64,000 nt of DNA from Leptolyngbya boryana PCC 6306. Lineage in GTDB: Bacteria; Cyanobacteriota; Cyanobacteriia; Leptolyngbyales; Leptolyngbyaceae. Positions 30,271-55,662 of this stretch are shown piece after piece (within the stretch, counting starts at the first letter, position 1; every line of letters begins with the position of its first letter). The notes under the pieces are model-generated. The model did not search any database, was not told the DNA's origin, and worked only from the letters and a program-made list of their open reading frames with translations. Location: contig NZ_KB731324.1 in assembly GCF_000353285.1 (NCBI RefSeq), forward strand, positions 1,692,577 through 1,756,576. The letters run 5' to 3'. The position numbers were made by a program, and so were the translations under genes.

Positions 30271-30750
30271 TTACAGCGATCGCCAGGTATCGCGCACGAC
30301 TTGACGAATTACTTCAAACGGCTGGCTCTCCGGCAGATGCAACTGCTCGGTTGAGAACACGTAGTACACTTCACCCGCATCACTCACTTCAAAATTCGCG
30401 TCGTATTCGCGTGCCCAAAGATCGAGATGTCGGCGCGCAATTTCCGGTTCGAGGCGGGTGGCTCTGGAGAAATCGAGCAGTGAAATCCTGCCCTGCTTGA
30501 TCCGCAACAGTTGGAAAAAGCGATCGCGAATGGCATGGCGATGCGCTTTAGAACTGGCATAGAGTAAAAGTCCTCCGATCGCACTGGGAGTCAGCCCAAA
30601 AAATACCAGCAGAATCAAGAGAATTGTAAATGCCCAGGTTGGAGGTTGGAATGCCAAAATCGACAGAGAAAGCGCGATCGAGATCACGCCACCTCCGCAG
30701 AGAAATAGGCTTCCAGCAACTTTGCTTGCAACACTCCAAAATCGATTCAT
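30271..30750 (-). CDS. Membrane protein with winged-helix-like cytoplasmic domain
   Basis: 159 residues. Two transmembrane helices (about residues 9-32 and 36-62) are followed by a cytoplasmic segment, RIKQGRISLLDFSRATRLEPE, that looks like a helix-turn-helix, then a strand pair (FEVSDAGEVYYVFS). This layout occurs in many hypothetical cyanobacterial proteins. No function is known. Transcribed alone. Confidence 0.75.
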   Translation of the reverse strand: MNRFWSVASKVAGSLFLCGGGVISIALSLSILAFQPPTWAFTILLILLVFFGLTPSAIGGLLLYASSKAHRHAIRDRFFQLLRIKQGRISLLDFSRATRLEPEIARRHLDLWAREYDANFEVSDAGEVYYVFSTEQLHLPESQPFEVIRQVVRDTWRSL

Positions 30751-30980
30751 GCGCGCCTCCGAAAAAGCTTAAAAAATTGAAGGGCGAGGCAACTTCAATC
30801 ACAGTATTCATAGCCTAACTGTTTTTCTTGCAATCGGGGCTATCGGGTTGCCGATCATTCGATTGACGGATTTCGCTCCTCAGTTTTCCCCCGGAAGAGG
30901 ATGGCTGAACGGTGGAGATCTACGTTAGTTTTAAGTCACTGTTCTGATGCCGTTTTGCATTAATTGTTGGAATTGCTTCT

Positions 30981-32636
30981 ATGTTTTCCAGACTTGTCCA
31001 AACCAGTTCGCGCCAAGGTGAAATCTTAGAAGTAGTGCTTCGGAACGGATGGGATTTTATGCGGCGGCTCTTGACCGGGGGAAAAGTTGACGAGCCAAAA
31101 TTGCCTCCCCCGGCTGTGTTGCGCAATATTTTGGTCGATTTGGGGCCCGTGTATGTGAAGCTCGGGCAACTGCTGAGCACTCGTCCTGATCTCTTGCCTG
31201 CGGAATATATTGATGCTCTGTCCACGCTGCAAGCAGAAGTTCCTCCGGTGGATTGGGCAGAAATTGAAGTCGTGCTGCGAAAACAATTTAGTCAGCCCCT
31301 AGAAGAAGTCTTTGCCTCGGTGAACTACACGCCCGTTGCAGCGGGTTCGATCGCTCAAACGCATTACGCTGTTCTCAAAGATGGACGAGCCGTTGCGCTC
31401 AAAGTTCAACGTCCAGGACTCTCAGCGGTTGTAGAACAAGATATTGCGCTGATTCGTTTGATGGCAAGACTGGTTGCTCAGACGGATTTTGGACAGTACT
31501 ACGATATTGTGGCGATCGCTGAAGAATTCGCGGAAGCGCTACGAAACGAGCTCGATTTTACTCAAGAAGCTCGATATACCGATCAACTGAGACAGAATTT
31601 GAGCGGGACTCGCTGGTTTGATGCCTCTCAGCTTGTGGTTCCTCAGATTTATTGGGAATATACAACCGATAAACTCGTTGCGATGGAATGGCTAGATGGT
31701 GTGGCGGTACTCTCTGCATTTCCGCCCATCAGTGCTGCTGAAGGTGTCGTCGATCTCCAGCGACGAGAAGAAATTTCAACGTTACTCCTCAGAGCGTTCT
31801 TCCAGCAAATTTGCTTAGATGGCTTCTTCCACGCTGATCCGCATCCTGGGAATGTGTTCTATCTCAAGGATGGGCGGGTAGCATTGCTCGATTGCGGCAT
31901 GGTGGGACGACTCGATCCAAGAACACAGCAGTTGATTTTGGAATTGGTACTCGCGATCGTCAATCTGGATGCCCAACGATGTACTCAACTCGTACTGCAA
32001 CTTGCGCCCCCGATTCAACCGATCAATCGAGTCAAGCTCGAAACCGAGTTCGATCGGTTACTGCGTCGGTACTATAGTCTGAATATCTCGCAGGTCAACT
32101 TTAGTAAGCTCGTTTACGAAGTGCTGCAAATTGTTCGAGACAATAAGGTGCGAGTTCCCGGCAATTTGGGGCTATGTGCGAAAGCGATCGCGAACCTAGA
32201 AGGCATTGCTCGATCACTCGATCCGAATTTCAACATTCCCAATAAAATTCGCCCAATGATGACGGAAGTTTTTCAGCGTCAGATTGTTGGAGAAGCGCCG
32301 TTAATTGCTTTGTTGCGAACGGTGTTGGATGTGAAAAATCTCTCATTGCAATCTCCGCGGCAGGTTGAGTTATTGCTCGATCGCGTCACGTCTGAAACCT
32401 TGCAGTGGAATTTTTCGATTCGAGAAGCAGAACCAATACGACGCACGGTCGATTCTGCTGCGAATCGGGTGTCTTTTAGTATTGTTGTTGGCTCATTGAT
32501 TATGGGTGCAGCGATTATTTCTGCGAATACGCAGTCGAGTCAAGTCTATTGGGTGAGTGATGTCTTGTTTGCAGCCGCGAGTTTCTTGGGGCTTTGGTTG
32601 ATTATTAGTATTCTGCGATCGGGGCCTTTGCGATAA
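30981..32636 (+). CDS. ABC1/UbiB-family atypical kinase
   Basis: 551 residues. The family marks are LGPVYVKLGQLLSTRPDLL (KxGQ helix, about residues 48-66), the Ala-rich loop AAGSIAQTHYAVL in place of a Gly-rich P-loop, ALKVQRPGL with the ATP-binding Lys, and the catalytic FFHADPHPGNVFYL and ALLDCGMVGRL. UbiB-type proteins support synthesis or transport of prenyl lipids and quinones; in cyanobacteria several copies are linked to plastoquinone/tocopherol metabolism. Two C-terminal transmembrane helices are present (about 500-545). Confidence 0.93.
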   Translation: MFSRLVQTSSRQGEILEVVLRNGWDFMRRLLTGGKVDEPKLPPPAVLRNILVDLGPVYVKLGQLLSTRPDLLPAEYIDALSTLQAEVPPVDWAEIEVVLRKQFSQPLEEVFASVNYTPVAAGSIAQTHYAVLKDGRAVALKVQRPGLSAVVEQDIALIRLMARLVAQTDFGQYYDIVAIAEEFAEALRNELDFTQEARYTDQLRQNLSGTRWFDASQLVVPQIYWEYTTDKLVAMEWLDGVAVLSAFPPISAAEGVVDLQRREEISTLLLRAFFQQICLDGFFHADPHPGNVFYLKDGRVALLDCGMVGRLDPRTQQLILELVLAIVNLDAQRCTQLVLQLAPPIQPINRVKLETEFDRLLRRYYSLNISQVNFSKLVYEVLQIVRDNKVRVPGNLGLCAKAIANLEGIARSLDPNFNIPNKIRPMMTEVFQRQIVGEAPLIALLRTVLDVKNLSLQSPRQVELLLDRVTSETLQWNFSIREAEPIRRTVDSAANRVSFSIVVGSLIMGAAIISANTQSSQVYWVSDVLFAAASFLGLWLIISILRSGPLR

Positions 32637-32660
32637 AAAGATCTGGATTATATTCAAAGC

Positions 32661-33278
32661 ATGTCCAAAGTTGTTGGCAACGACATGATGGCTTCGCTGA
32701 CGCTTCCTCTCAAAATTGACATGAGCCAGGTTCACTTTACAGATGATCAGTTTTATCTCCTTTGTATGAGCAATCCTGACTTAACGATCGAACGAGATGC
32801 GAAAGCAGCTTTGATTCTTACGTCTCCAGTTGGCGGTGATAGCGGAAGACGAGAAGCGAGCTATATTGCTGACTTGATCATTTGGAATCGTCAAACTGGA
32901 CTCGGAGAAGTGTTCAGTTCTTCAACGATGTTTAAGCTGCCAGAAGGGGGCGCTCGCTCTCCTGATGCGGCGTGGGTTGAGTGATCGCGCTGGCAAACTC
33001 TGACTGCTGAACAGCGTCAGAAATTTCCTCCAATTGCACCTGATTTTGTCTTGGAACTGCGATCGCGAACTGACAGCTTGGAGACATTGCAGGAAAAGAT
33101 GCAGGAGTATATGACGAGTGGTGTTCAGTTGGGTTTGATGGTGAATCCTCAGAATCAAGAAATTGAAATCTATCGTCAAGGACAACTGAGAGAAGTGCGA
33201 TCGCTGCCGACGCAATTTCCTGGTGAAGCTGTTTTACCAGGGTTTATGTTGCAGATTGATCGATTTGTAGAGGATTGA
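32661..33278 (+). pseudogene. Uma2-family (DUF820) nuclease-like gene interrupted by one TGA
   Basis: Reads as one Uma2 protein except for TGA at 32982-32984. The first half has ADLIIWNRQTGLGEVFSSST and ends SPDAAWVE, then a stop, then SRWQTLTAEQRQKFPPIAPD, FVLELRSRTDSLETLQEKMQ and GLMVNPQNQEIEIYR, so PD...E...K-type catalytic residues are in the second half. Intact relatives read AWV then charged residue then RW. One C-to-T change from CGA (Arg) within a CGATCG site explains it. As it stands only truncated products can be made. Confidence 0.8.
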
Positions 33279-33289
33279 TGCCAAGTCCT

Positions 33290-33508
33290 TTAAGTCGTTT
33301 GCGATCGCTGAGCCAACAAGCAGTCCTCAAAACTAAATGCTTCTTCATCTAGAAAGGACGCGATCGCCATCTCAACAACGGCTTCGATTGGGCAATCTAA
33401 TTCAGTTGTTTTCTTGATTAGGGCAGCTTTCACATAATCAGGCATATCTTCTAAGATCTGCTGAACCGATTCTGCTGAAAGATGCTGTTTACTTAAGGTC
33501 GGATTCAT
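33290..33508 (-). CDS. Small hypothetical protein paired with the GIY-YIG gene
   Basis: 72 residues, all-helical, acidic (PI not computed), no recognised domain. AESVQQILEDMPDYVKAAL and DCPIEAVVEMAIASFLDEE suggest two helical hairpins, a shape used by small regulatory or antitoxin-like proteins. Its ATG overlaps the stop of the GIY-YIG gene (ATGA), so the two are translated together. Confidence 0.65.
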   Translation of the reverse strand: MNPTLSKQHLSAESVQQILEDMPDYVKAALIKKTTELDCPIEAVVEMAIASFLDEEAFSFEDCLLAQRSQTT

Positions 33509-33882
33509 AGCTCTCTTGGAATCATCACGTTATAGGGTGGATTCGTAGCTTGCAGAATGAGCGTCTCTAGCTCATATGATAACCCTGGTCTTTGCCATTG
33601 CTGAATGACCTGATAAGCGATCCGCACCTGATCTGGATCATAACGATCGAGCCATCCCCATAGATAGGCTTTGTGTCCTCCTTTCAATCGATCTCTAAGA
33701 TTCTTTGCTTTGCCGATATACAGCAATCCCTCTGTTTGATGTCTGAAAGCATACAATCCTAGGCGAGAAGGGATATCGTCAAATTCACGACTCAAAGGGA
33801 TGCAGTTTTCAAAAGGCGTAAAGGCAAGTGTATCGAGAATTAGCTGTGCTTCCTGCTGAATCTCATTGCGATCGCGGGTCAT
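33505..33882 (-). CDS. GIY-YIG nuclease-domain protein
   Basis: 125 residues. The sequence has GLYAFRHQTEGLLYIGKAKNL (Tyr and Tyr-Ile-Gly, about residues 42-62), a basic RDRLKGGHKAYLWGWL region, and ELETLILQATNPPYN, the Glu and Asn-Pro-x-x-N end of the fold. Relatives range from UvrC-type nucleases to single-domain proteins of unknown role. It is followed by the 72-residue gene with a four-base overlap. Confidence 0.75.
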   Translation of the reverse strand: MTRDRNEIQQEAQLILDTLAFTPFENCIPLSREFDDIPSRLGLYAFRHQTEGLLYIGKAKNLRDRLKGGHKAYLWGWLDRYDPDQVRIAYQVIQQWQRPGLSYELETLILQATNPPYNVMIPREL

Positions 33883-34066
33883 TCTAAAAGTCGTGTGCTG
33901 TTGATCTGTAACAGCGCTGATTTTATCTGAGAAGTGATGAATTTTTCGGAAGATGTGCGATCACGTGGTTTTTCCTGAGTTGAACCAAAAGACTTAGGAT
34001 TGACTAAATTGGGAAGAGAGAGTCGTTTGCCCTTGCTTTCTCGATCGCTTAATGCAGTTCCGACCC

Positions 34067-36502
34067 ATGAAGCTTTTTATCTCCTATGCCCACAAAGATG
34101 AGAGCCTGCGCGAAAAGTTCGACAATCACCTCAGTCTCTTGAAACGTCAAGGTGTCATTGAGGCTTGGCACGATCGCGAAATCAAACCGGGAACTGAATG
34201 GGCAAAAGAAATTGACAGCAATTTGGATAAGGCAGACCTAATCTTACTGCTGGTTAGTTCCGATTTTCTTGCTTCTGATTACTGCTACGAAAGAGAGATG
34301 AAGAGAGCGATCGAGCTTCATGATAAAAAAGTGGCTCGCGTGATTCCGATTGTTTTGCGCTCTTGTGATTGGGAATCTGCACCTTTTGGCAAACTCCAAG
34401 GACTTCCAATTGTGACAGGTGGAGGCATTAAGCCTGTTAACAAATGGGAAGACGAAGTATGGACGCAAATTGTCAAGAGTATCCGAAAAGTCGCGGCGGA
34501 GATGAAGCAATGGGTTGAAGAAATTCGAGCGCGCTGTTGCCAAAAGATTCTCTCTCAATACAGCACGATTCAACTATTGAACCAAACTGAGATTACGGTC
34601 GATCAGCTTTATGTGGATGTGTGGTTGTTGAATCGCTCTCCTCGAACGTTTCTGGTTTCAGAAGACAAGATGTTGGAGAAGTTTGATTTGCGGAACGATC
34701 GATTAGGATTGGGCGATCGCATTAAGCGCAATGAGGGAATGGCAGTTGCACATGAAAACACTCGATTGCTGATTTTAGGGAAACCGGGGGCAGGGAAAAC
34801 AACTTTTCTCAAGCATTTGGCGGTGGATTGCAGTAAGGGTAAATTTCAGCCAGACTTAATTCCAGTTTTAATTGAACTACGGCAGATTCAATCTGAGGAA
34901 TGGAATTTATTAGATGCGATTTCGGAGCAATTAGCGCTAGACCCTCAGCAAACGCAAAAGCTATTAGTGCAAGGGAAACTCCTGGTTTTGATGGATGGAC
35001 TTGATGAAGTCCCGACCAGTAGCTTTCGACGTAATGTGCAAGATCAGGTGTGTGATCTTGCTCAAGAACCAAAACATGAGGGCAATCGGTTCACGCTAAC
35101 TTGCCGGACGCAAATTATTGAAACGATCCCGCAAGGCTTTGCTTCCGTAGAGGTCGCAGACTTTAACTCGGAACAGGCCAAGACATTTGTGGAGAATTGG
35201 GTTTGTGCGAGTGGGCTGACCGAGAGCGAGATCGCACAGCAGTGGCAAGAATTTTCAGATGCCATAGAAGCGAATCCAGCCTTGAAAGAACTGACCGTAA
35301 CGCCTGTGCTGTTGAGTTTGATGTGTTGGGTGTTTCAGGATTCAGGAGAATTGCCTACCCAGACGGCTTTGCTCTATGAAAAGGGTATTCGGTTGCTGTT
35401 GGAGAAATGGAACGATCGTAAGGAGATTTCTAGATGGGAAGTTGGCAATGAAGTGTATAGGAAACTAGAGCTTGAGCAGAAAGAGCGACTTCTCACCGAA
35501 ATTGCAGCATGGAAATTTGAGAATCCAGAGAACTTCGTTTTATTTGAGCAGAAAGATTTGGCAATTCAAATTGCTCAAATCCTCAAACTTTCCAATGTAC
35601 AAGAAGGAGAAGCTGTATTGAGAGCAATCGAGGCACAGCATGGATTACTCGTCGAAAGAGCTGATGAATTATGGTCATTCTCTCATCTCACCTTCCAGGA
35701 ACACTTCACAGTTCGATGGCTGACTCAACTTTCTTCTGAGCAGCTTGCTCAGAGGATTGCACATTCTAGATGGCAAGAAGTGCTGAAGCAACTTGTCAAG
35801 TCTCAACCAGCAGATAGATTGCTCAAATTGATGAAACAGGCAATCGATAATACTCTTGTGCAGGATGACAAAATACAGGAATTTCTGAACTGGGTTCGCG
35901 AAAAGACTGAATTGATTGATACATCACATAAACCTGTTGCGATTCGAGCGTTTTACTTTGATCTCGTCTGCGATCCCAATCTCTACCGCACTCTCTACCG
36001 CCCCCGTAGCCACACCCTTGCCCGTCTTCTTGATCTTGACCTTGACCTCGATTTTGACCTCAATCTTGACCTTGATCTTGCTCGTGTTCTCGACCTTAAC
36101 CTTGACTGTGATCTATACCGTGTTCTGGCTCGTGTTCCCAATTCCGAATTAGCGCTTAAGCTTCAACAGCTTAAATCGCAACTACCAGAAGGGTTTTCTA
36201 CTCAGAACTGTCAAGCGTCAATGTCTTGGTGGCACAGCAATGGGCAGGCTTGGGCTGAAGCATTGCGTCAGGTCACGATCAAGCATCGCAATATCGGGCA
36301 CAATTGGCAGTTTACTGAAGCGCAGAAACAGGCTCTACGCCGATACTATGATGCAAACAAATTTCTAGTCGAACTACTGAAACATGAGGGCGCTGGCAGT
36401 GTGTCAGTGCGTCAAGGAATTGAAGATAATCTGCTGTTACCCATTGCCACGCTTCAAGAACGTTTTCCGGAGATGTATGGAAGGGATGAGATTAGGGAGT
36501 AG
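34067..36502 (+). CDS. TIR-NACHT protein, bacterial NLR-like antiphage candidate
   Basis: 811 residues from ATG 34067 (34052 also possible). N-terminal TIR domain (residues 1-135): KLFISYAHKDESLREKF, then SSDFLASDYCYEREM with the catalytic Glu candidate (about 75) of NAD-cleaving TIRs. A linker with ITVDQLYVDVWLL leads to the NACHT NTPase: GKPGAGKTTFLKHLA (Walker A, about 238-252), LLVLMDGLDEVP (Walker B, about 305-316), then winged-helix and helical regions. A Leu-Asp alternating tract (about residues 653-685) precedes a helical C-terminus. By analogy to TIR-STAND defence proteins, phage sensing would trigger oligomerisation and NAD depletion. The activity is inferred. Confidence 0.9.
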   Translation: MKLFISYAHKDESLREKFDNHLSLLKRQGVIEAWHDREIKPGTEWAKEIDSNLDKADLILLLVSSDFLASDYCYEREMKRAIELHDKKVARVIPIVLRSCDWESAPFGKLQGLPIVTGGGIKPVNKWEDEVWTQIVKSIRKVAAEMKQWVEEIRARCCQKILSQYSTIQLLNQTEITVDQLYVDVWLLNRSPRTFLVSEDKMLEKFDLRNDRLGLGDRIKRNEGMAVAHENTRLLILGKPGAGKTTFLKHLAVDCSKGKFQPDLIPVLIELRQIQSEEWNLLDAISEQLALDPQQTQKLLVQGKLLVLMDGLDEVPTSSFRRNVQDQVCDLAQEPKHEGNRFTLTCRTQIIETIPQGFASVEVADFNSEQAKTFVENWVCASGLTESEIAQQWQEFSDAIEANPALKELTVTPVLLSLMCWVFQDSGELPTQTALLYEKGIRLLLEKWNDRKEISRWEVGNEVYRKLELEQKERLLTEIAAWKFENPENFVLFEQKDLAIQIAQILKLSNVQEGEAVLRAIEAQHGLLVERADELWSFSHLTFQEHFTVRWLTQLSSEQLAQRIAHSRWQEVLKQLVKSQPADRLLKLMKQAIDNTLVQDDKIQEFLNWVREKTELIDTSHKPVAIRAFYFDLVCDPNLYRTLYRPRSHTLARLLDLDLDLDFDLNLDLDLARVLDLNLDCDLYRVLARVPNSELALKLQQLKSQLPEGFSTQNCQASMSWWHSNGQAWAEALRQVTIKHRNIGHNWQFTEAQKQALRRYYDANKFLVELLKHEGAGSVSVRQGIEDNLLLPIATLQERFPEMYGRDEIRE
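36025..36120 (+). repeat. Leu-Asp codon tract inside the TIR-NACHT gene
   Basis: Irregular hexamer-like repeats of CTTGAC/CTTGAT/CTCGAT encode alternating Leu and Asp with a few Phe, Asn, Arg and Val. Such tracts are prone to slippage, so length can vary between strains. Similar Leu/Asp/Arg/Ala alternating stretches occur in other cyanobacterial NACHT proteins (from memory). Confidence 0.75.
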
Positions 36503-36750
36503 GGAATAAGAAAGAACTATTTTTGGTTGAGGTTAGGAATCATTGTGTGATCGAATCACGATCTTACTTCATCCCTTGCAACACAGTTCAAATATTCGCG
36601 TAGCACCCAGAAAAGCGTAGAAGTTTATCGCACGTTACATATCCACGCATGAGCGCGACCAAAATGATTCTTATCACCCTAGATCCAGATGATTTTCGAC
36701 ATCGCGTGTATAGTGATTAGAAGCTTTTCCATTGCCTTTGAGAGTAATCT

Positions 36751-37569
36751 ATGAGACTTTCTGCCCTATTGCGTCTTCGGTCTTGGCAAATCCTATTTTT
36801 TCTCGGATTGAGTTTGACGATCGCCAGCGCTCAACTCAGCGATCGAGCCACGGCTGCCACTCCCGAAACCGCGCCCGCAGAACTCAAACAAGTTTTATCA
36901 AAAATTGATGCCGCTGCAAATAGCAGAAATGCACAAGCCGTACTTCAGTTTTATAGCCCAAACTTTACGCATTCCGACGGGCTAAATCGTCAGAGCTTAG
37001 AGCAATCTTTGACACAACTTTGGAAGCAGTATTCCAACTTAACGTACAAGACCGAATTGCAGTCTTGGCAACCGAGTAGTAACGGGTTTCAAGCAGAAAC
37101 GGTCACTCGGATTACTGGAACGCAAGCGCAAAACGGACAGCAAGTGAAACTGGATGCAACCTTGCGATCGCGGCAGCAATTTCAGAATCAAAAAATCGTT
37201 AAACAAGAGATTCTGTCTGAAAAAAATCTAATTACAACCGGAGATAAGCCACCTTCTGTCAATGTTAGTCTGCCTGATCAGGTGCGGGTAGGACAGGAGT
37301 TTAGCTTTGATGCGATCGTCCAAGAACCCCTCGAAAACGACCTACTGCTAGGTACAGTCGTGCAAGAAGCGGTGAATTCGGCAGGGTATCTGAAGCCTGC
37401 AACGGCTGATCTGGATGTGCTGAATTCGGGTGGACTGTTTAAGATTGGCAAAGCCCCGAATCAAGCTGGCGCGCAGTGGATTTCAGCCGTTTTGGTACGG
37501 CATGGTGGAATGACAATGGTGACACAACGATTGAATGTCGTTGCCGGATCAACTCGACCCGCAAGATAA
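36751..37569 (+). CDS. Secreted NTF2/SnoaL-like domain protein
   Basis: 272 residues. The signal peptide spans about residues 1-36 (hydrophobic FFLGLSLTIASAQ). The following 100 residues (VLSKIDAAANSRNAQAVLQF, then YSPNFTHSDGLNRQSLEQSL) match the small NTF2-like cone fold with variable pocket. The C-terminal part (about 175-272) is a beta-rich segment without known domain. Its 3' end overlaps the convergent MOSC gene by 21 nt. Confidence 0.75.
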   Translation: MRLSALLRLRSWQILFFLGLSLTIASAQLSDRATAATPETAPAELKQVLSKIDAAANSRNAQAVLQFYSPNFTHSDGLNRQSLEQSLTQLWKQYSNLTYKTELQSWQPSSNGFQAETVTRITGTQAQNGQQVKLDATLRSRQQFQNQKIVKQEILSEKNLITTGDKPPSVNVSLPDQVRVGQEFSFDAIVQEPLENDLLLGTVVQEAVNSAGYLKPATADLDVLNSGGLFKIGKAPNQAGAQWISAVLVRHGGMTMVTQRLNVVAGSTRPAR

Positions 37570-38331
37570 GATATCCCCAATTCTTAGAATTTTCCCCGCT
37601 TCAGTTGGCGCAATTCTTGTATTGATTGCCATGCGGTAGTAATGAGTAAATCGAGTCTCATCTGCCCAAGCGGGAAATTCTGCTCGGCGCTGAAGCATAA
37701 ACGTCTTCTGAAACTGAGGATAAGCTTCGCCTGAACGTGCATCCCGAGTGGGAACAATGCAGCGTTGACAGGGATTGATGCCTTGTAGCTCGACCTCCCC
37801 GATTTGAAATCGGACAGGCGTTTCATCGGTTGAATACAATCGCTCTTCCCAAAAAGCAGCGACATCCCCGAGTTCTAAATTGGTGCGGAGTCGCGATCGC
37901 ATTTCCTCAACGGTGATGTCTGAAAACCATGATGCGGCGCGTTCTAATGTTGCTGTGCTGATCAGAGTCGGCCCAGGGGAAGCTGAATCATCGGGAAATC
38001 CGGTCGTGAGATCTTGTTTCAACGTCACCGAAAAGCCAAAATAATCGCTCAACCAGCCTTCAATCCCCCTGCGACCGTGATCGAGATGGAAACTGACAGG
38101 TTGCTCGTTCTGAATCGCAAGCGTGACAATCCGGGCTTTGAGATCAAACGTCGATCGAATCTGATGAATTGCCGCAGTTCGTTTGCCATTCACGATTTTA
38201 TTGGCACGATCAACGATACAAAATTCTCGATCGTGCTCTAATGCGCCACCGGGCAAAATCTTGGCGTGATCTACAGCGATGCCATCGAGAGATTTGATCG
38301 GATAAATCAGGAGATGGGTCAGCTTCGGCAT
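37549..38331 (-). CDS. MOSC-domain protein (mARC/YcbX-like)
   Basis: 260 residues from Met at 38331. It opens KLTHLLIYPIKSLDGIAVD, the MOSC N-terminal barrel, and continues with GGALEHDREFCIVD. The catalytic-type NPCQRCIVPTRD near residue 200 holds the cysteine that binds molybdenum cofactor in mARC/YcbX enzymes. These reduce N-hydroxylated compounds with help of an electron donor. No redox partner is adjacent. A longer start at 38364 adds 11 unlikely residues. Confidence 0.9.
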   Translation of the reverse strand: MPKLTHLLIYPIKSLDGIAVDHAKILPGGALEHDREFCIVDRANKIVNGKRTAAIHQIRSTFDLKARIVTLAIQNEQPVSFHLDHGRRGIEGWLSDYFGFSVTLKQDLTTGFPDDSASPGPTLISTATLERAASWFSDITVEEMRSRLRTNLELGDVAAFWEERLYSTDETPVRFQIGEVELQGINPCQRCIVPTRDARSGEAYPQFQKTFMLQRRAEFPAWADETRFTHYYRMAINTRIAPTEAGKILRIGDILSCGSS

Positions 38332-38367
38332 AGGATTCGTAAAATACTGCATCCAGTTTGCCAAGAT

Positions 38368-39861
38368 TTAAGCTGGCTTGACTGGAATCGTAATGATAAA
38401 TTCTGTTCCGTGAATCGGATTAGAAATACACTCCAAACTGCCGTGATGCCGCTCTGTGACAATCTGGTGACTAATCGAAAGCCCCAAGCCTGTCCCTTTT
38501 CCGACAGGTTTGGTTGTAAAGAAAGGATCGAATAGTTTAGACTGAATCGATTCTGGAATTCCAGAACCATTGTCATGGATGCAAATTCTCACCGTACTCT
38601 CGATCATCTCTGTAGTAATTTCGATGCGAGGTGAAAAGCTAGAATCTTGCTCACACAACTCTTCTAAAGCATCGATCGCATTACTCAAAAGATTCATGAA
38701 CACCTGATTGAGTTGCCCTGCAAAACATTCGATCAAAGGCAAATCGGCGTAGTTTGTGACAATAGTGATGGCTTTTCGATCTGGAGTTGCTTTGAGTCGA
38801 TGTTTCAAAATCATCAATGTACTGTCGATCCCAGCCTGAAGATCGACGGCTTTACAGTCTGGCTCATCCATGCGAGAAAAAATCTTCAACGAAGCGACAA
38901 TTTCTCTAATCCGATCGGCTCCAATCGTCATTGATGTGAGCAACTTCGGCAAGTCTTCCATCAGAAACTCTAAATCAATCTCCTCTTCTTTCTCTTGAAT
39001 CAATTCAGCATCGGTAGCCTTGCGATAGAGTTTGACCAATTCAATCAGATCGGCTGCGTACGCACTGGCATGCGAAATATTGCCATAAATGAAACTAACG
39101 GGGTTGTTAATTTCATGCGCAACGCCAGCAACTAACTGTCCCAAGCTCGACATTTTTTCGCTTTGGATCAGTTGGCTTTGGGTGTGCTGGAGTTCTTGTA
39201 GAGTCTGTTCTAGAGCCTCGGCGCGATCGCGAATCTGAGTATAGAGATTCGCTTGACTAATAGCAGATTGGATTGTCTGCATCAAATTGATCAAGCCTAA
39301 AATTGCATCGTCATCGCTTTGAATCCGGTGATGATATTTGGCTCGCTCCCGGGCATTGCCTAGTAAAATTAAGAACTCAGACTCTGCGATCATAAAGCCG
39401 ATAAACTCATCCATGCCAATGCGATCGCCCAGATCTCGAAGCGCTGGATTCGGACTGTCGATCAGACCGATCAGCTGATTCGAGACAAATGCTTGAAAAG
39501 CAGGGTGGTGCAAATCTAGCGCCAGCGAATCGACGATGTTATCGTCTTCGTAATAGCCTTCGTGTTGCACCAACTGAAATTGCTCATGCTGACGCTGCAA
39601 AATTAAACAGCGCTGAAAATTGCGATCGTAAACAATAAACTGGAGAATTTCCTGCAAAATTCCGCTAATTGAAAAAGACTGGCTCACCCGTTTCCCAATT
39701 TCATTGAGTTGACGGTAGAGGCTGATTTGCCCATCGAGTCGATCTTGAGATTCGATCATCCGGCGCTCTGCACGCACGAGACGTTTGACCTGTTCGGAGA
39801 GCCGTTGATTTTCAGCGCGCAGATGGGCAATTTCAGCATCGAGAGACGTGGCAGGAACCAT
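38368..39861 (-). CDS. Sensor histidine kinase with GAF-like input domain
   Basis: 497 soluble residues. An N-terminal coiled coil (about 5-55) is followed by a GAF-like region (about 60-190), a second coiled coil, and the kinase core: H-box SLGQLVAGVAHEINNP (His249), N-box FMNLLSNAIDALEE, G1 IHDNGSGIP and G2 GKGTGLGLSISH. There is no membrane anchor, so it senses a cytoplasmic signal. The gene lies 65 nt downstream of the FIST-domain gene on the same strand, so the two are likely an operon and the FIST protein may feed this kinase. Confidence 0.92.
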   Translation of the reverse strand: MVPATSLDAEIAHLRAENQRLSEQVKRLVRAERRMIESQDRLDGQISLYRQLNEIGKRVSQSFSISGILQEILQFIVYDRNFQRCLILQRQHEQFQLVQHEGYYEDDNIVDSLALDLHHPAFQAFVSNQLIGLIDSPNPALRDLGDRIGMDEFIGFMIAESEFLILLGNARERAKYHHRIQSDDDAILGLINLMQTIQSAISQANLYTQIRDRAEALEQTLQELQHTQSQLIQSEKMSSLGQLVAGVAHEINNPVSFIYGNISHASAYAADLIELVKLYRKATDAELIQEKEEEIDLEFLMEDLPKLLTSMTIGADRIREIVASLKIFSRMDEPDCKAVDLQAGIDSTLMILKHRLKATPDRKAITIVTNYADLPLIECFAGQLNQVFMNLLSNAIDALEELCEQDSSFSPRIEITTEMIESTVRICIHDNGSGIPESIQSKLFDPFFTTKPVGKGTGLGLSISHQIVTERHHGSLECISNPIHGTEFIITIPVKPA

Positions 39862-39926
39862 AGCAGTTTGGGATATAGAGCAAGTTTCAAAGCCGTTCTT
39901 GAGCAGACCATCTAGTGATCGATCGT

Positions 39927-41153
39927 CTAGTAAATGGCAGCTAAGACTAATGTGTAATTGTGAAATCCGTTTCTGCCTTTGATCGGAGCGATCTCACCAT
40001 GCGTATATAGCCCAATCCAAGGGAGAGAAGTGCCGACCTGTTGCTGGAGTTTCTGCTCAAGCCGTTGTTTTTCTAATTCCCCCAGCACAGATTTTCCACG
40101 TCCATAACAGTCGAATTGGAAAATCAACTTCGCGGATTGGGCTTGCAGTTGAGTGTTTAAGTGTTCGGCGATCGTATCAATGCCTTGAGCAATCTTCTCC
40201 GGATCGCGGCGAGTAATCCAAATACTACTTCCTTCTACAACGTCAGTTTGCAGCGTTACAGATCCGGCAACATCGTCTTTGCTCGGCAAGTAGCGAATCA
40301 CAAACTCATCGTGATCTTGAGCATAATTCGGAGCTTTTAACCCGAAACAGAAGGCAACGATTGTGCGATCCCAGGCTTGAATTTCTTCTTCTGTGAGATA
40401 CTCACGCAGCACCTCAAACACAGGCTGATGATCAATTTCAAAAATCTTATTGCCTTGGGCGCGGGTAATTTTTCGCTCTTGACCGATCGGAACACAGCCA
40501 TGATTGAGTGCCCAAATCACTTGGCAATCTCCAGAGAGCAACGTGGCAACTACACCATCTGAAATGACTTGATCATCACAATACTGATAGGTTGCTTTCA
40601 TTTCGATATCGCTGCCCGCTGCGCCTCCTAAAATCGGCGGAACAGTGTAACCCTGCTGAGCAAATTCTGATTCAATCCCGGTCATCAAGCGATCGAAGTT
40701 CACCGTAATGCCATCGGTGAAGAGAAACATGGCTTGAGCTTGTTCGCTAAAATCCATCAGCAATTTACTGGCGATCGTTTGACCTGTTTCGGTTGGCTGC
40801 TCTTTGAGTCCGACGGCGTAGCGATTCGTAAAGCGGAGTTCATCGGACTGGATCACCATCACGGCAACTGAAAAATTCGATTCATCGGCTTCATTCTGGA
40901 CAATCACGCCTTGCCCAGAGCATCCTGCCAGCGGGCAATTGCCTGTCTCTTGCCGCACGACTTGTACTAATTTCTGTTGGTGATATCCAAGCGAGGCGAA
41001 GAGAAAAACGAAATCTGGCTGTGTGATATTCGCAGCAGTCATCGCTTTTTGAACAGCCTCTTTTGCTGCTTGAGTCACATTGCGAAGATGACTCATTCCA
41101 ACTCCAGCTTGAGTTCCCATTGCAGAGTGTTGAAAAACTTCAGTTTCTAACAT
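39927..41153 (-). CDS. FIST-domain signal-input protein
   Basis: 408 residues. It has an N-terminal FIST domain (FVFLFASLGYHQQKLVQVV; LAGCSGQGVI; MFLFTDGITVN) and a FIST C-terminal domain (FDCYGRGKSVLG; WIGLYTHGEIAPI). FIST domains are thought to bind small ligands such as amino acids and sit upstream of kinases or cyclases. Here no output domain is fused; the histidine kinase is encoded next in the operon. A divergent Ser/Thr kinase gene begins 150 nt on the other side. Confidence 0.9.
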   Translation of the reverse strand: MLETEVFQHSAMGTQAGVGMSHLRNVTQAAKEAVQKAMTAANITQPDFVFLFASLGYHQQKLVQVVRQETGNCPLAGCSGQGVIVQNEADESNFSVAVMVIQSDELRFTNRYAVGLKEQPTETGQTIASKLLMDFSEQAQAMFLFTDGITVNFDRLMTGIESEFAQQGYTVPPILGGAAGSDIEMKATYQYCDDQVISDGVVATLLSGDCQVIWALNHGCVPIGQERKITRAQGNKIFEIDHQPVFEVLREYLTEEEIQAWDRTIVAFCFGLKAPNYAQDHDEFVIRYLPSKDDVAGSVTLQTDVVEGSSIWITRRDPEKIAQGIDTIAEHLNTQLQAQSAKLIFQFDCYGRGKSVLGELEKQRLEQKLQQQVGTSLPWIGLYTHGEIAPIKGRNGFHNYTLVLAAIY

Positions 41154-41302
41154 GCCCGATCGTCTCTTTCTACAAACAAAAAACGAAACTCAGCTTCATA
41201 TTTCACCGCTAACCCAAAATGGCTGCTATACGCTATAAGTAAATACTTGGAACTCCGGTTCTATAGAATTGCCCTTTATCCTTGTGCGTATCGGAATCGA
41301 CC

Positions 41303-43159
41303 ATGCAGCCACCTATTCCCCCAGCTACTGTTTTACAAAGTCGCTATCGGATTCTCAGCGTGTTGGGACAGGGAGGGTTTGGTCGCACCTATCTTGCCGA
41401 AGATCAAGGACGATTTAACGAAGCTTGTGCGATTAAAGAATTAACGCCGCCTCAAGATAATCCTTACGCGCTAGAGAAATCCAAAGAATTATTTCAGCGC
41501 GAAGCCCAAACGCTTTACCAAATTCAGCATCCTCAGATTCCGCAGTTTCGTGCGACGTTTGAGCAGGATCAGCGATTTTTTATTGTGCAAGATTATGTCG
41601 AAGGGCAAACCTATCGATCGCTGTTAGATGAACGCAAATCGCGCGGGTATGTTTTTTCAGAAGCAGAAGTCACGCAGCTTGTGAAGCAGGTTTTACCTGT
41701 GTTGGCATATATTCACGGCAAAGGGATTATTCACCGAGATATTGCGCCGGACAATATCATTCTGCGTGATCACGATAAGCTGCCCGTCTTGATCGATTTT
41801 GGCGTGGTCAAAGATCTTGCGACTCGCATTCAGGCACAAGATACGGTCAAACAGCATACGACGGTTGGCAAGCTCGGCTATGCTCCGACCGAACAAATGC
41901 AGACGGGTCGAGCCTACCCGAATAGCGATTTATATGCGTTGGCAGTCACCGCTGTTGTTTTACTCACGGGACGCGAACCGCAGGATCTCTTCGACGAAAA
42001 TACGATGACTTGGCGTTGGCAGCGATTCGTCAATTTAGAGCCAACGTTTGGACAGGTGCTGAATCGAATGCTGAGTTATCGAGTCAGCGATCGCTATCAA
42101 TCTGCAACCGAAGTCTTGCAAGTTCTACAAAGTCCGGCAACGATGGCTCCGCTGCCAGCGACCCCTCCGCCCACTCAGGCGCAGCCACCGACGAATGTCT
42201 CTAGAGCAGAAACCTTGGCAGTGGGTCGGCGCGATAGTACGACGGTTGCGCCGACGAGTTTGCAAAATCGCAATGATCCTTCGATTCCATCGAGAAGTTC
42301 GCTTTGGGATGATCCGTGGGCGGTGCTTGCGATCGGAACTGGGCTAGTGCTGCTGACAGGACTGGGAGCTTGGACTATCACCCGTGCTTTGATGACTCCT
42401 GCCCCGATCGCGTCTCCGACTCCAATCCCAACGACTCCGTCTCCAAGTCCAACTAAAACTGCGACTCCAAAACCTTCTCCGACTACAACTCCGAGTCCTG
42501 ATCCGGTCACGTATAGTCAGCGACTTGATTTTGTTCAAGGTGCAGCGACTCGCAGTGGAACATTAAAATCGAATGAGACTCTCAATTTTATTGTTCCCGC
42601 TAATCAAGGGCAGCAGTTGAATGCAAGTTTGGGCGGTGGAGAAGGTGTGCTATTAAGCGTTTTAGCCCCGAATCGCGATCCAGTCGATAGTGCATCAAAT
42701 CGTGTCTCGAATTGGGCAGGAGAACTCCCGTTTACGGGGGATTACATCATTCAATTGAGAACCGTAAAAGGGATTCCTAAGAGCGATTTCAAGCTCAACG
42801 TCAATCTGCAAACGCCAGCCCCTAGCCCTTCACCGTCTCCCTCTCCAACGGCAAGTCCAAGCATTGTGGAAGCCGTGATTGAAATTCCACAAGGTCAGAC
42901 TGGAACGAAGGTGAGTGAAAGAGTCGATGCCCTCACGACTCGTCGCTATCTCATCAATGTTCGTGCTAAGCAATCTTTAGCCTTGACCCTTACTCCGGGG
43001 ACACGATTTACGGTACGGTATCCAGATGGTAGCCCGGTTGAAGATGCAACGAATTTACAGCGATGGAGTGCGATTGTACCGAAAGGCGGAAGCTATCAAG
43101 TTGATGTGACGAGTGATGCTCCAGCGGAGTTCACGCTGACTGTTGATGTCCAAGGATAA
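41303..43159 (+). CDS. Ser/Thr protein kinase with transmembrane and pre-peptidase-C-like tail
   Basis: 618 residues from ATG 41303. Kinase motifs: GQGGFGRTYLAED (about residue 22-34), AIKEL (Lys45), HRDIAPDNIIL (about 144-154), IDFGVVKD (DFG 165-167). The catalytic loop has the unusual Asp-Ile-Ala in place of Asp-Leu-Lys, a form known in cyanobacteria. Residues 275-335 are low complexity, one transmembrane helix follows (about 340-360), then a Pro/Thr/Ser-rich stalk and a beta-rich region (about 405-500 and 535-615) of pre-peptidase C type, probably extracytoplasmic. It lies 6 nt upstream of bioD but the functions are unrelated. Confidence 0.92.
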   Translation: MQPPIPPATVLQSRYRILSVLGQGGFGRTYLAEDQGRFNEACAIKELTPPQDNPYALEKSKELFQREAQTLYQIQHPQIPQFRATFEQDQRFFIVQDYVEGQTYRSLLDERKSRGYVFSEAEVTQLVKQVLPVLAYIHGKGIIHRDIAPDNIILRDHDKLPVLIDFGVVKDLATRIQAQDTVKQHTTVGKLGYAPTEQMQTGRAYPNSDLYALAVTAVVLLTGREPQDLFDENTMTWRWQRFVNLEPTFGQVLNRMLSYRVSDRYQSATEVLQVLQSPATMAPLPATPPPTQAQPPTNVSRAETLAVGRRDSTTVAPTSLQNRNDPSIPSRSSLWDDPWAVLAIGTGLVLLTGLGAWTITRALMTPAPIASPTPIPTTPSPSPTKTATPKPSPTTTPSPDPVTYSQRLDFVQGAATRSGTLKSNETLNFIVPANQGQQLNASLGGGEGVLLSVLAPNRDPVDSASNRVSNWAGELPFTGDYIIQLRTVKGIPKSDFKLNVNLQTPAPSPSPSPSPTASPSIVEAVIEIPQGQTGTKVSERVDALTTRRYLINVRAKQSLALTLTPGTRFTVRYPDGSPVEDATNLQRWSAIVPKGGSYQVDVTSDAPAEFTLTVDVQG

Positions 43160-54774: not shown

Positions 54775-55581
54775 TTAGCGGGTTAAAAACATTTGCAGTA
54801 ATCCACCCACGACATTGATCAAGCTCTGACCAAAGTTGTTGCCTCGACGTTGTTGATCAGGTGGATTCTTTAAGCCTTGTGCGAGTGCGACTGCTGATTT
54901 TGCATTCGCCGCATCCCCTTGCCGATCAAACAAAGCCGCAGCTTGTTCCGAGTCTTGAATGGCTCCTTTTTGATCACCCAACTCTAAGCGTGCCATTGCG
55001 CGCCCAATCAAAGCAGGCGCAGAATCCGGTTTCCGCACTAAGGCTTGATTGAAATTTGCGATCGCGGTTTCATACTGTCGCCGTTTCCCAGCTTCCATTG
55101 CCATTTGATAGAACATTTCTGCATTCCCGGCTGAAGTCGGTAAGCCAACGGCTCCGTGAATGGCTGCCGTTTCGATTTGAGTGCCTGTTAAATCTGCTCC
55201 CACTAAATACGATCGCGTTAAATCTGCCCCTTGAATATTCGCATTCGTCAACTTTGCGCCTGCGAGATTTGCGCCACTCAGGGAAGCGCCTGCGAGATTG
55301 GCGTTGGTTAAGTCTGCGCCCGCGAGATTCGCTTGACTGAGATTTGCGCCCGCGAGATTTGCGCCCGCGAGATTTGCCCCAGACAATTGAGCCAACACTA
55401 ACCCGGCGCTACTGAGTTCGCAATTTGCACATTGCCGAGTCGAAAGTAATTGCCGAACGTGATCAATATTTTCAGCCTGAACGGGTAATGCAATCCCCAA
55501 TGAGAAAACTGCTGCGATCGTCGTCAAATGAGTCCGGGTCATATGCAGGGAACGGGTAGGGTGATCAGGAAAACACTTCAT
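54775..55581 (-). CDS. Secreted pentapeptide-repeat and TPR protein
   Basis: 268 residues from ATG 55581 (an ATG at 55542 gives a shorter signal). A signal peptide ends near IALPVQAEN. QCANCELSSAGLVLAQL starts a pentapeptide beta-helix with about thirteen A(N/D)L(A/T/S)xx repeats, then a TPR region (FYQMAMEAGKRRQYETAIAN; ALVRKPDSAPALIGRAMARL) and a C-terminal hydrophobic helix. The repeat DNA is nearly identical at the nucleotide level (GCGCCCGCGAGATTT in successive copies on the plus strand), so copy number may vary. Role unknown, envelope-located. Confidence 0.85.
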   Translation of the reverse strand: MKCFPDHPTRSLHMTRTHLTTIAAVFSLGIALPVQAENIDHVRQLLSTRQCANCELSSAGLVLAQLSGANLAGANLAGANLSQANLAGADLTNANLAGASLSGANLAGAKLTNANIQGADLTRSYLVGADLTGTQIETAAIHGAVGLPTSAGNAEMFYQMAMEAGKRRQYETAIANFNQALVRKPDSAPALIGRAMARLELGDQKGAIQDSEQAAALFDRQGDAANAKSAVALAQGLKNPPDQQRRGNNFGQSLINVVGGLLQMFLTR

Positions 55582-55662
55582 ATTACTTTCTGGTGACAGT
55601 TGTGGCACGATCGATATTCAGTACGATCGACAAGCGCGAGTATTCCCGATTTGGTTCTCGAT

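Follow-up and report, generated by a model that had tools for sequence, protein, structure and literature searches.

A coding hexanucleotide array at one site of a Leptolyngbya TIR-NACHT-NCH2 protein, a candidate NLR-type immune receptor

Does a single gene of Leptolyngbya boryana PCC 6306 that joins a TIR domain to a NACHT NTPase encode an immune receptor, and which part of it is out of the ordinary? The gene occupies positions 34067 to 36502 of the window, by which we mean the whole 64,000-nucleotide (64-kb) stretch of DNA that was analyzed and to which all positions refer. Its domain architecture is known, and what is unusual here is a hexanucleotide array within the coding sequence. We put at about 0.5 the probability that the protein is a single-gene bacterial NLR-type immune receptor with a sensor segment that is renewed as a coding microsatellite arises, expands, and decays. 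The features of the gene are listed below, with residue numbers referring to the 811-aa product that starts at 34067; NNY denotes a codon ending in a pyrimidine.

34067 to 36502, plus strand: TIR-NACHT-NCH2 protein of 811 aa (816 aa from an alternative ATG at 34052)
34076 to 34402, plus strand: TIR_2 domain (Pfam, residues 4-112, 1.6e-16)
34295 to 34297, plus strand: E77, putative catalytic Glu of the TIR domain, aligned with Roq1 E86
34766 to 35203, plus strand: NACHT NTPase (Pfam, residues 234-379, 6.4e-17; structure match to NOD2, NLRC4, and NLRP3)
34778 to 34804, plus strand: Walker A, GKPGAGKTT, residues 238-246 with K244 (from the sequence; nearly invariant in the family)
34979 to 35008, plus strand: Walker B, LLVLMDGLDE, residues 305-314 (from the sequence; nearly invariant in the family)
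35204 to 35944, plus strand: helical/winged-helix part of the NACHT module, ending right before RAFYF (helices in the model)
35945 to 36160, plus strand: hypervariable segment, residues 627-698, with 54 consecutive NNY codons in an in-frame hexanucleotide array, Leu/Arg alternating with Asp/Asn/Ala
36028 to 36137, plus strand: most repetitive part of the array (Tandem Repeats Finder, periods of 6, 12, 24, and 36 nt)
36155 to 36442, plus strand: NCH2, NACHT C-terminal helical domain 2 (Pfam PF22727, residues 697-792, 3.2e-32)

The array lies between the sequence RAFYF (35945) and position 36161, where the NCH2 motif LQQLKSQLP begins, and the gene there reads, in part, LLDLDLDLDFDLNLDLDLARVLDLNLDCDLYRVLARV. 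Its consecutive NNY codons, from 35951 to 36112, account for the sole 50-codon stretch of the window in which at least 90% of codons are NNY; when 400 kb of the same genome were sampled, partly around known NCH2 genes (464 kb scanned with the window included), the only such stretches in long open reading frames (ORFs) were found in two paralogues, at the same site. Across 59 family members, four-fold degenerate codons ended in a pyrimidine in 1978 of 2487 cases (0.795) within the segment and in 2642 of 5672 (0.466) upstream (p = 7e-178), and leucine was encoded by CTY 617 times versus 322 times by CTR or TTR (R, purine) in the segment, compared to 403 versus 1685 upstream. Selection on the protein alone was rejected as the cause of this codon bias, since synonymous four-fold sites and the choice of leucine codons carry it; the bias acts at the level of the DNA. 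Of 1938 recurrences of 12-mers in the NNY-rich members, 1895 were spaced by a multiple of 6 nt, and 12% of the distinct 12-mers were repeated within the segment, versus 0.6% after codon shuffling. G codons alternated with C codons at 0.91 of informative neighbors in the segment versus 0.45 upstream and, together with the hexamer register, this alternation identifies the array as GNY-CNY, with GAC/GCC (Asp/Ala) alternating with CTC/CGC (Leu/Arg). Repetitiveness was correlated with pyrimidine bias (Spearman 0.75), the pattern predicted for arrays that start out as hexamers and lose their regularity through point mutation, and the simplest account of the pyrimidines retained at third positions in diverged copies is hexamer ancestry with fast turnover. 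These patterns are in keeping with replication slippage or with unequal exchange between hexamers, which may be the mechanism at the DNA level. No NNY or hexanucleotide coding arrays in NACHT proteins or NLRs were found in the literature searched, which excludes most subscription journals. A 78-aa hydrophobic ORF (35916-36152, plus strand), frame-shifted relative to the main ORF, is a by-product of the array that it overlaps, because an NNY tract shifted by one base (NYN) can hold no stop codon.

Comparison of family members and relatives (designated by L-numbers) revealed that the segment is replaced wholesale between close relatives, and its length ranges from 32 to 187 aa within the family. 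Over 408 aa upstream, the proteins L068 and L085 show 90% identity, and their segments of 78 and 96 aa hold different arrays; at the DNA level, identity continues through RAFYF and resumes on the NCH2 side. The same replacement was observed for L099/L151 (88%), L022/L097 (83%), and L185/L193 (90%; a non-repetitive segment versus an array), so that in four close pairs with flank identities of 0.83-0.90 the segments were unrelated or changed in length, with sharp edges. By contrast, a sister subclass has a 73-aa segment with no marked pyrimidine bias that is conserved nearly as well as its flanks; for 261 pairs lacking an NNY-rich member, the median identity was 0.70 in the segment versus 0.76 upstream. 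When array presence was mapped on a tree of the NACHT part, 30 changes were counted versus a mean of 35.8 (27-40) for shuffled labels; this closeness to the shuffled expectation indicates that arrays come and go often. The ratio of nonsynonymous to synonymous substitution rates (dN/dS) was compared only for NNY-rich or long variable segments that still align, with few events and non-independent pairs, and amounted to 0.49 in the segment versus 0.12 in the flanks for L226/L222, 0.61 versus 0.21 for L052/L053, and 1.87 (on 14 changes) versus 0.20 for L048/L055; no increase was seen for the L041-L062 group, and no clear one for the 73-aa class. Within the L041-L062 group, L041, L045, L046, L049, and L062 have in common a 96-aa segment, NNY-rich but not repetitive, that is conserved among several genomes of the Nostoc group and seems to be an array that has become fixed.

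The remainder of the protein has the parts expected of a bacterial NACHT (bNACHT) defense protein: a NACHT-type STAND NTPase in which both Walker motifs are intact, as the sequence-only reading had claimed, with the effector (TIR_2), the NACHT module, and the sensor-side NCH2 in one ORF. The TIR domain also fits the PADLOC ThsB profile PDLC00420 (residues 2-148, 5.8e-54). In a phmmer alignment, E77 stands opposite E86 of Roq1, which we take to be the catalytic residue of that protein, with one residue inserted immediately before it; the catalytic Glu attributed to the domain by the earlier reading thus reappears in the alignment as a putative one, at the sequence level only given that the TIR model is unreliable. 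The equivalent Glu is present in both other TIR-NACHT-NCH2 paralogues of the genome. With TIR_2 scoring above its cut-off and this Glu aligned, the domain probably belongs to the TIR NADase family. The AlphaFold model, built from 22 sequences (mean pLDDT, the per-residue confidence score, of 66.6), was good for the NACHT core and poor for the TIR part and residues 635-676; the TIR model (pLDDT about 40) is unusable because the aligned relatives carry other N-termini. Structure prediction had been proposed by the sequence-only reading, and it placed the NACHT module on NOD2 (5irn; Z 22.0, 349 residues aligned, root mean square deviation 4.7), NLRP3 (Z 20.0), and NLRC4 (Z 19.9) using Foldseek and VIA-align, the alignment with NOD2 and NLRC4 covering residues 144-590 and beyond. 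As modeled, this is an NLR-type NACHT module. The C-terminal domain is NCH2, with a Pfam score of 110.9 bits versus a gathering threshold of 27, so the suggested C-terminal helical sensor was right in its NCH2 part; the repeat segment that precedes NCH2 had been overlooked.

NCH2 was detected in 179 of 291 cyanobacterial genomes and in 0 of 14 control genomes. NACHT-NCH2 proteins are thus catalogued and widespread in cyanobacteria, and the architecture is better known than the earlier reading implied when it called the gene the window's best candidate for an unstudied immune system; the array, unseen there, is the unusual part. The L. boryana genome (7.26 Mb, 5 contigs) has eight matches to NCH2, of which three lie in TIR-NACHT-NCH2 proteins; paralogues of the window gene are located at C1:4861522-4864050 and C1:2861732-2864260. 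A 20-kb part of contig C2 matched L. boryana plasmids at 100% over 96%, and at 99.9% over the NACHT gene. A similar TIR domain was found in 4 of the 101 relatives with a near-complete N-terminal side, 3 of these 4 being encoded by the same genome. All four TIR-NACHT-NCH2 proteins (L009, L171, L164, and L014) have NNY-rich arrays, with four-fold pyrimidine fractions of 0.93-1.0, versus 62 of 164 members in the family; this may hint at a link between the TIR effector and the array, or reflect mere relatedness. The NACHT-NCH2 gene on plasmid pSYSM of Synechocystis is annotated as three ORFs in strain B12 (L298 versus L297), with two single-base indels and otherwise 99.7% identity to the copy in PCC 6803.

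A role in phage defense is most likely, judging by homology. The C-terminal half of the protein, comprising the repeat segment and NCH2, would keep the NACHT ATPase off until infection, when it would sense a signal linked to the phage. NACHT with bound ATP would then oligomerize, and the clustered TIR domains would consume NAD+ and halt the infected cell's growth. The fast-turnover part of the sensor half would be the repeat segment, possibly contributing to recognition: GNY-CNY arrays (Asp/Ala alternating with Leu/Arg) would be born or replaced at a single site and then decay by point mutation, altering length and side chains with the frame kept.

Known systems share parts of this design. In animal NLRs (NOD2, NLRC4, and NLRP3) the NACHT module with its helical and winged-helix parts is held in common (VIA-align Z 18-22), but the window protein has no leucine-rich repeats, and a TIR effector takes the place of CARD or PYD. 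The TIR domain resembles in sequence those of Thoeris ThsB and of the plant TIR-NLR Roq1. Unlike in Thoeris, the domain with its fit to the ThsB profile is fused to NACHT; no ThsA gene was recognized among the immediate neighbors examined (the Uma2 pseudogene and the GIY-YIG, SnoaL-like, and MOSC genes), and no genome search aimed at ThsA was made. In Roq1, as in the window protein, the TIR domain is joined to an NTPase switch, which is NB-ARC in Roq1 and NACHT here. The repeats of fungal NLRs are whole structural units such as WD40, whereas the array in the window is made of two-residue units from a 6-nt microsatellite. In both, the sensor would be built of repeats that turn over, fungal NLRs with high internal repeat conservation having repeat domains of this kind (PMC4986451). 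Tested bNACHT proteins differ in effector and C-terminal domain: the antiphage protein bNACHT25 consists of a PD-(D/E)XK nuclease, NACHT, and NCH1 (PMC12169576); it has the same single-gene layout with an N-terminal effector, NACHT, and a C-terminal helical domain, but the window protein has TIR, NCH2, and the hexanucleotide array in place of the nuclease and NCH1, and the passages of that paper that were consulted make no mention of NCH2. NACHT antigen sensors diversified by diversity-generating retroelements (DGRs), in which reverse transcriptase mutagenizes a lectin domain from a template repeat, have been proposed in multicellular bacteria (PMC10907252). These too are NACHT proteins with a proposed fast-diversifying sensor; the window gene differs in its length-variable hexanucleotide array, in that no template was found, and in having no C-type lectin domain.

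The surroundings of the gene have the accessory character that the sequence-only reading had ascribed to them, and its two neighbors were also named correctly, the GIY-YIG gene being confirmed by Pfam and the Uma2 gene being broken by one stop codon.

32637 to 36670, no strand: variable interval with the Uma2 pseudogene, the GIY-YIG gene, and the TIR-NACHT gene, between two blastn blocks conserved in the nearest relative
32661 to 33278, plus strand: broken Uma2-family gene, with a single in-frame stop at 32982-32984

DNA similarity to the nearest relative (G004) was detected by blastn in blocks 30509-32636 and 36671-41739, with none between them. The two blocks are on different contigs in that genome, making the site both an accessory interval and a synteny break. 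The neighbors beyond the interval are ordinary (a MOSC protein, a histidine kinase, and a protein kinase). Elsewhere in the window, 54775-55608 (minus strand) encodes a pentapeptide-repeat plus TPR protein, which accounts for a 15/30-nt tandem repeat at 55286-55377.

Several observations weigh against an immune receptor with a sensor that turns over rapidly. The close array pairs all compare different species. Length polymorphism of the array among strains was not observed, the plasmid-borne relatives available within a species being identical or not arrays: those of L. boryana and Tolypothrix were identical between the strains compared, and the PCC 7910 relative showed point changes and, at its C-terminus beyond the segment, a difference of 6 nt. 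The conserved NNY-rich segments of the L041-L062 group are stable, with dN/dS near or below that of the flanks. The array of the window protein was modeled as helices at pLDDT 33-47, a very low confidence. Finally, a phage search for the array motif matched 52 contigs, with no NACHT protein among them and a few unrelated ORFs holding ALDL arrays; unrelated ORFs on high-GC phage contigs (L229, L232, L239, L254, L263, L265, and L278) carry (A/D)(L/R) arrays, so immune proteins are not alone in having the repeat. Its recurrent replacement at one site of one NACHT family is the specific feature. The arrays in six of these phage ORFs (L229, L232, L239, L254, L263, and L265) are located at the end or inside and are coded by the same GNC-CNC hexamers; most of the ORFs share an EAxAWxAGEPHSD-like motif followed by a helical part, none being NACHT proteins, and a single weak PHROG match, of unknown function, was obtained. 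No relative of the whole protein was found in the viral contigs searched.

It is quite possible that the protein is a defense NLR whose array does no more than separate NACHT from NCH2, as a helical spacer under loose constraint in which a slippage-prone hexamer expands because composition matters there but not sequence. The wide range of segment lengths, the similar arrays in unrelated phage ORFs, and a composition limited to the helix-friendly residues A, L, D, and R with a predicted helix are consistent with such a spacer. The second half of the L060 array was also modeled as helices (pLDDT 61-85), and helix prediction alone would not separate a helical spacer from a helical recognition segment. 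The spacer explanation is opposed by the recurrence of arrays at this site and nowhere else in long ORFs of the sampled genome, and by the sister subclass, in which purifying selection on the conserved 73-aa segment indicates that the site has a specific role there.

An unlikely alternative is that the TIR-NACHT protein serves not in phage defense but in the control of stress responses or cell death, or lets a filamentous cyanobacterium tell self from non-self. The large number of NACHT-NCH2 genes in cyanobacteria speaks for such a role, and variable sensors would suit allorecognition, as in fungal NLRs (PMC4986451); the accessory location argues otherwise, as does the phage protection conferred by tested bacterial NACHT proteins (PMC12169576). 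We regard as improbable that the array, with its alternation of hydrophobic and charged residues, assembles itself into a beta or amyloid-like polymerization element that nucleates receptor assembly. Strict alternation such as LDLDLDLDFDLNLDL resembles designed self-assembling peptides. The sole match to DLDLDLDLDL in literature text was a paper on self-assembling peptides (PMC6097002), but AlphaFold gave helices, not strands, at low to moderate confidence, and the A/R-rich versions do not look beta-prone.

A genome search uncovered no donor for the array in the genome, the best other match being 72% over 64 bp in the array of a paralogue, and the longest exact run shared between arrays of the genome was 18 nt. 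Reverse transcriptase genes are located on other contigs (C2 and C3), with the complete ones encoding 560-573 aa. Although NNY codons are what adenine mutagenesis of AAY would leave and segments are replaced wholesale, rewriting of the segment from a template, by a DGR or by gene conversion from donor cassettes, is thus hardly credible and was rejected, as no template, donor, or second array copy was found in the genome and the length varies freely within a strict hexamer register.

The preferred interpretation remains an NLR-type receptor with a sensor segment renewed by a coding microsatellite. Its extension to cyanobacterial NLRs as a group, with a recognition segment diversified by a coding hexanucleotide microsatellite at a fixed site through repeated birth, expansion, replacement, and decay, is tentative and may well not hold. 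L. boryana can be cultured and has many named strains, so both turnover and function are directly testable. Exchange of the sensor segment through a short coding repeat, with the flanks intact, would be a simple source of receptor diversity with which bacterial NLRs could keep pace with phages. If true, immune receptors inside the cell would be diversified without a template, by a route that differs from DGRs and from the shuffling of repeat domains, and that would parallel the hypervariable sensors of fungal and plant NLRs by a different mechanism.
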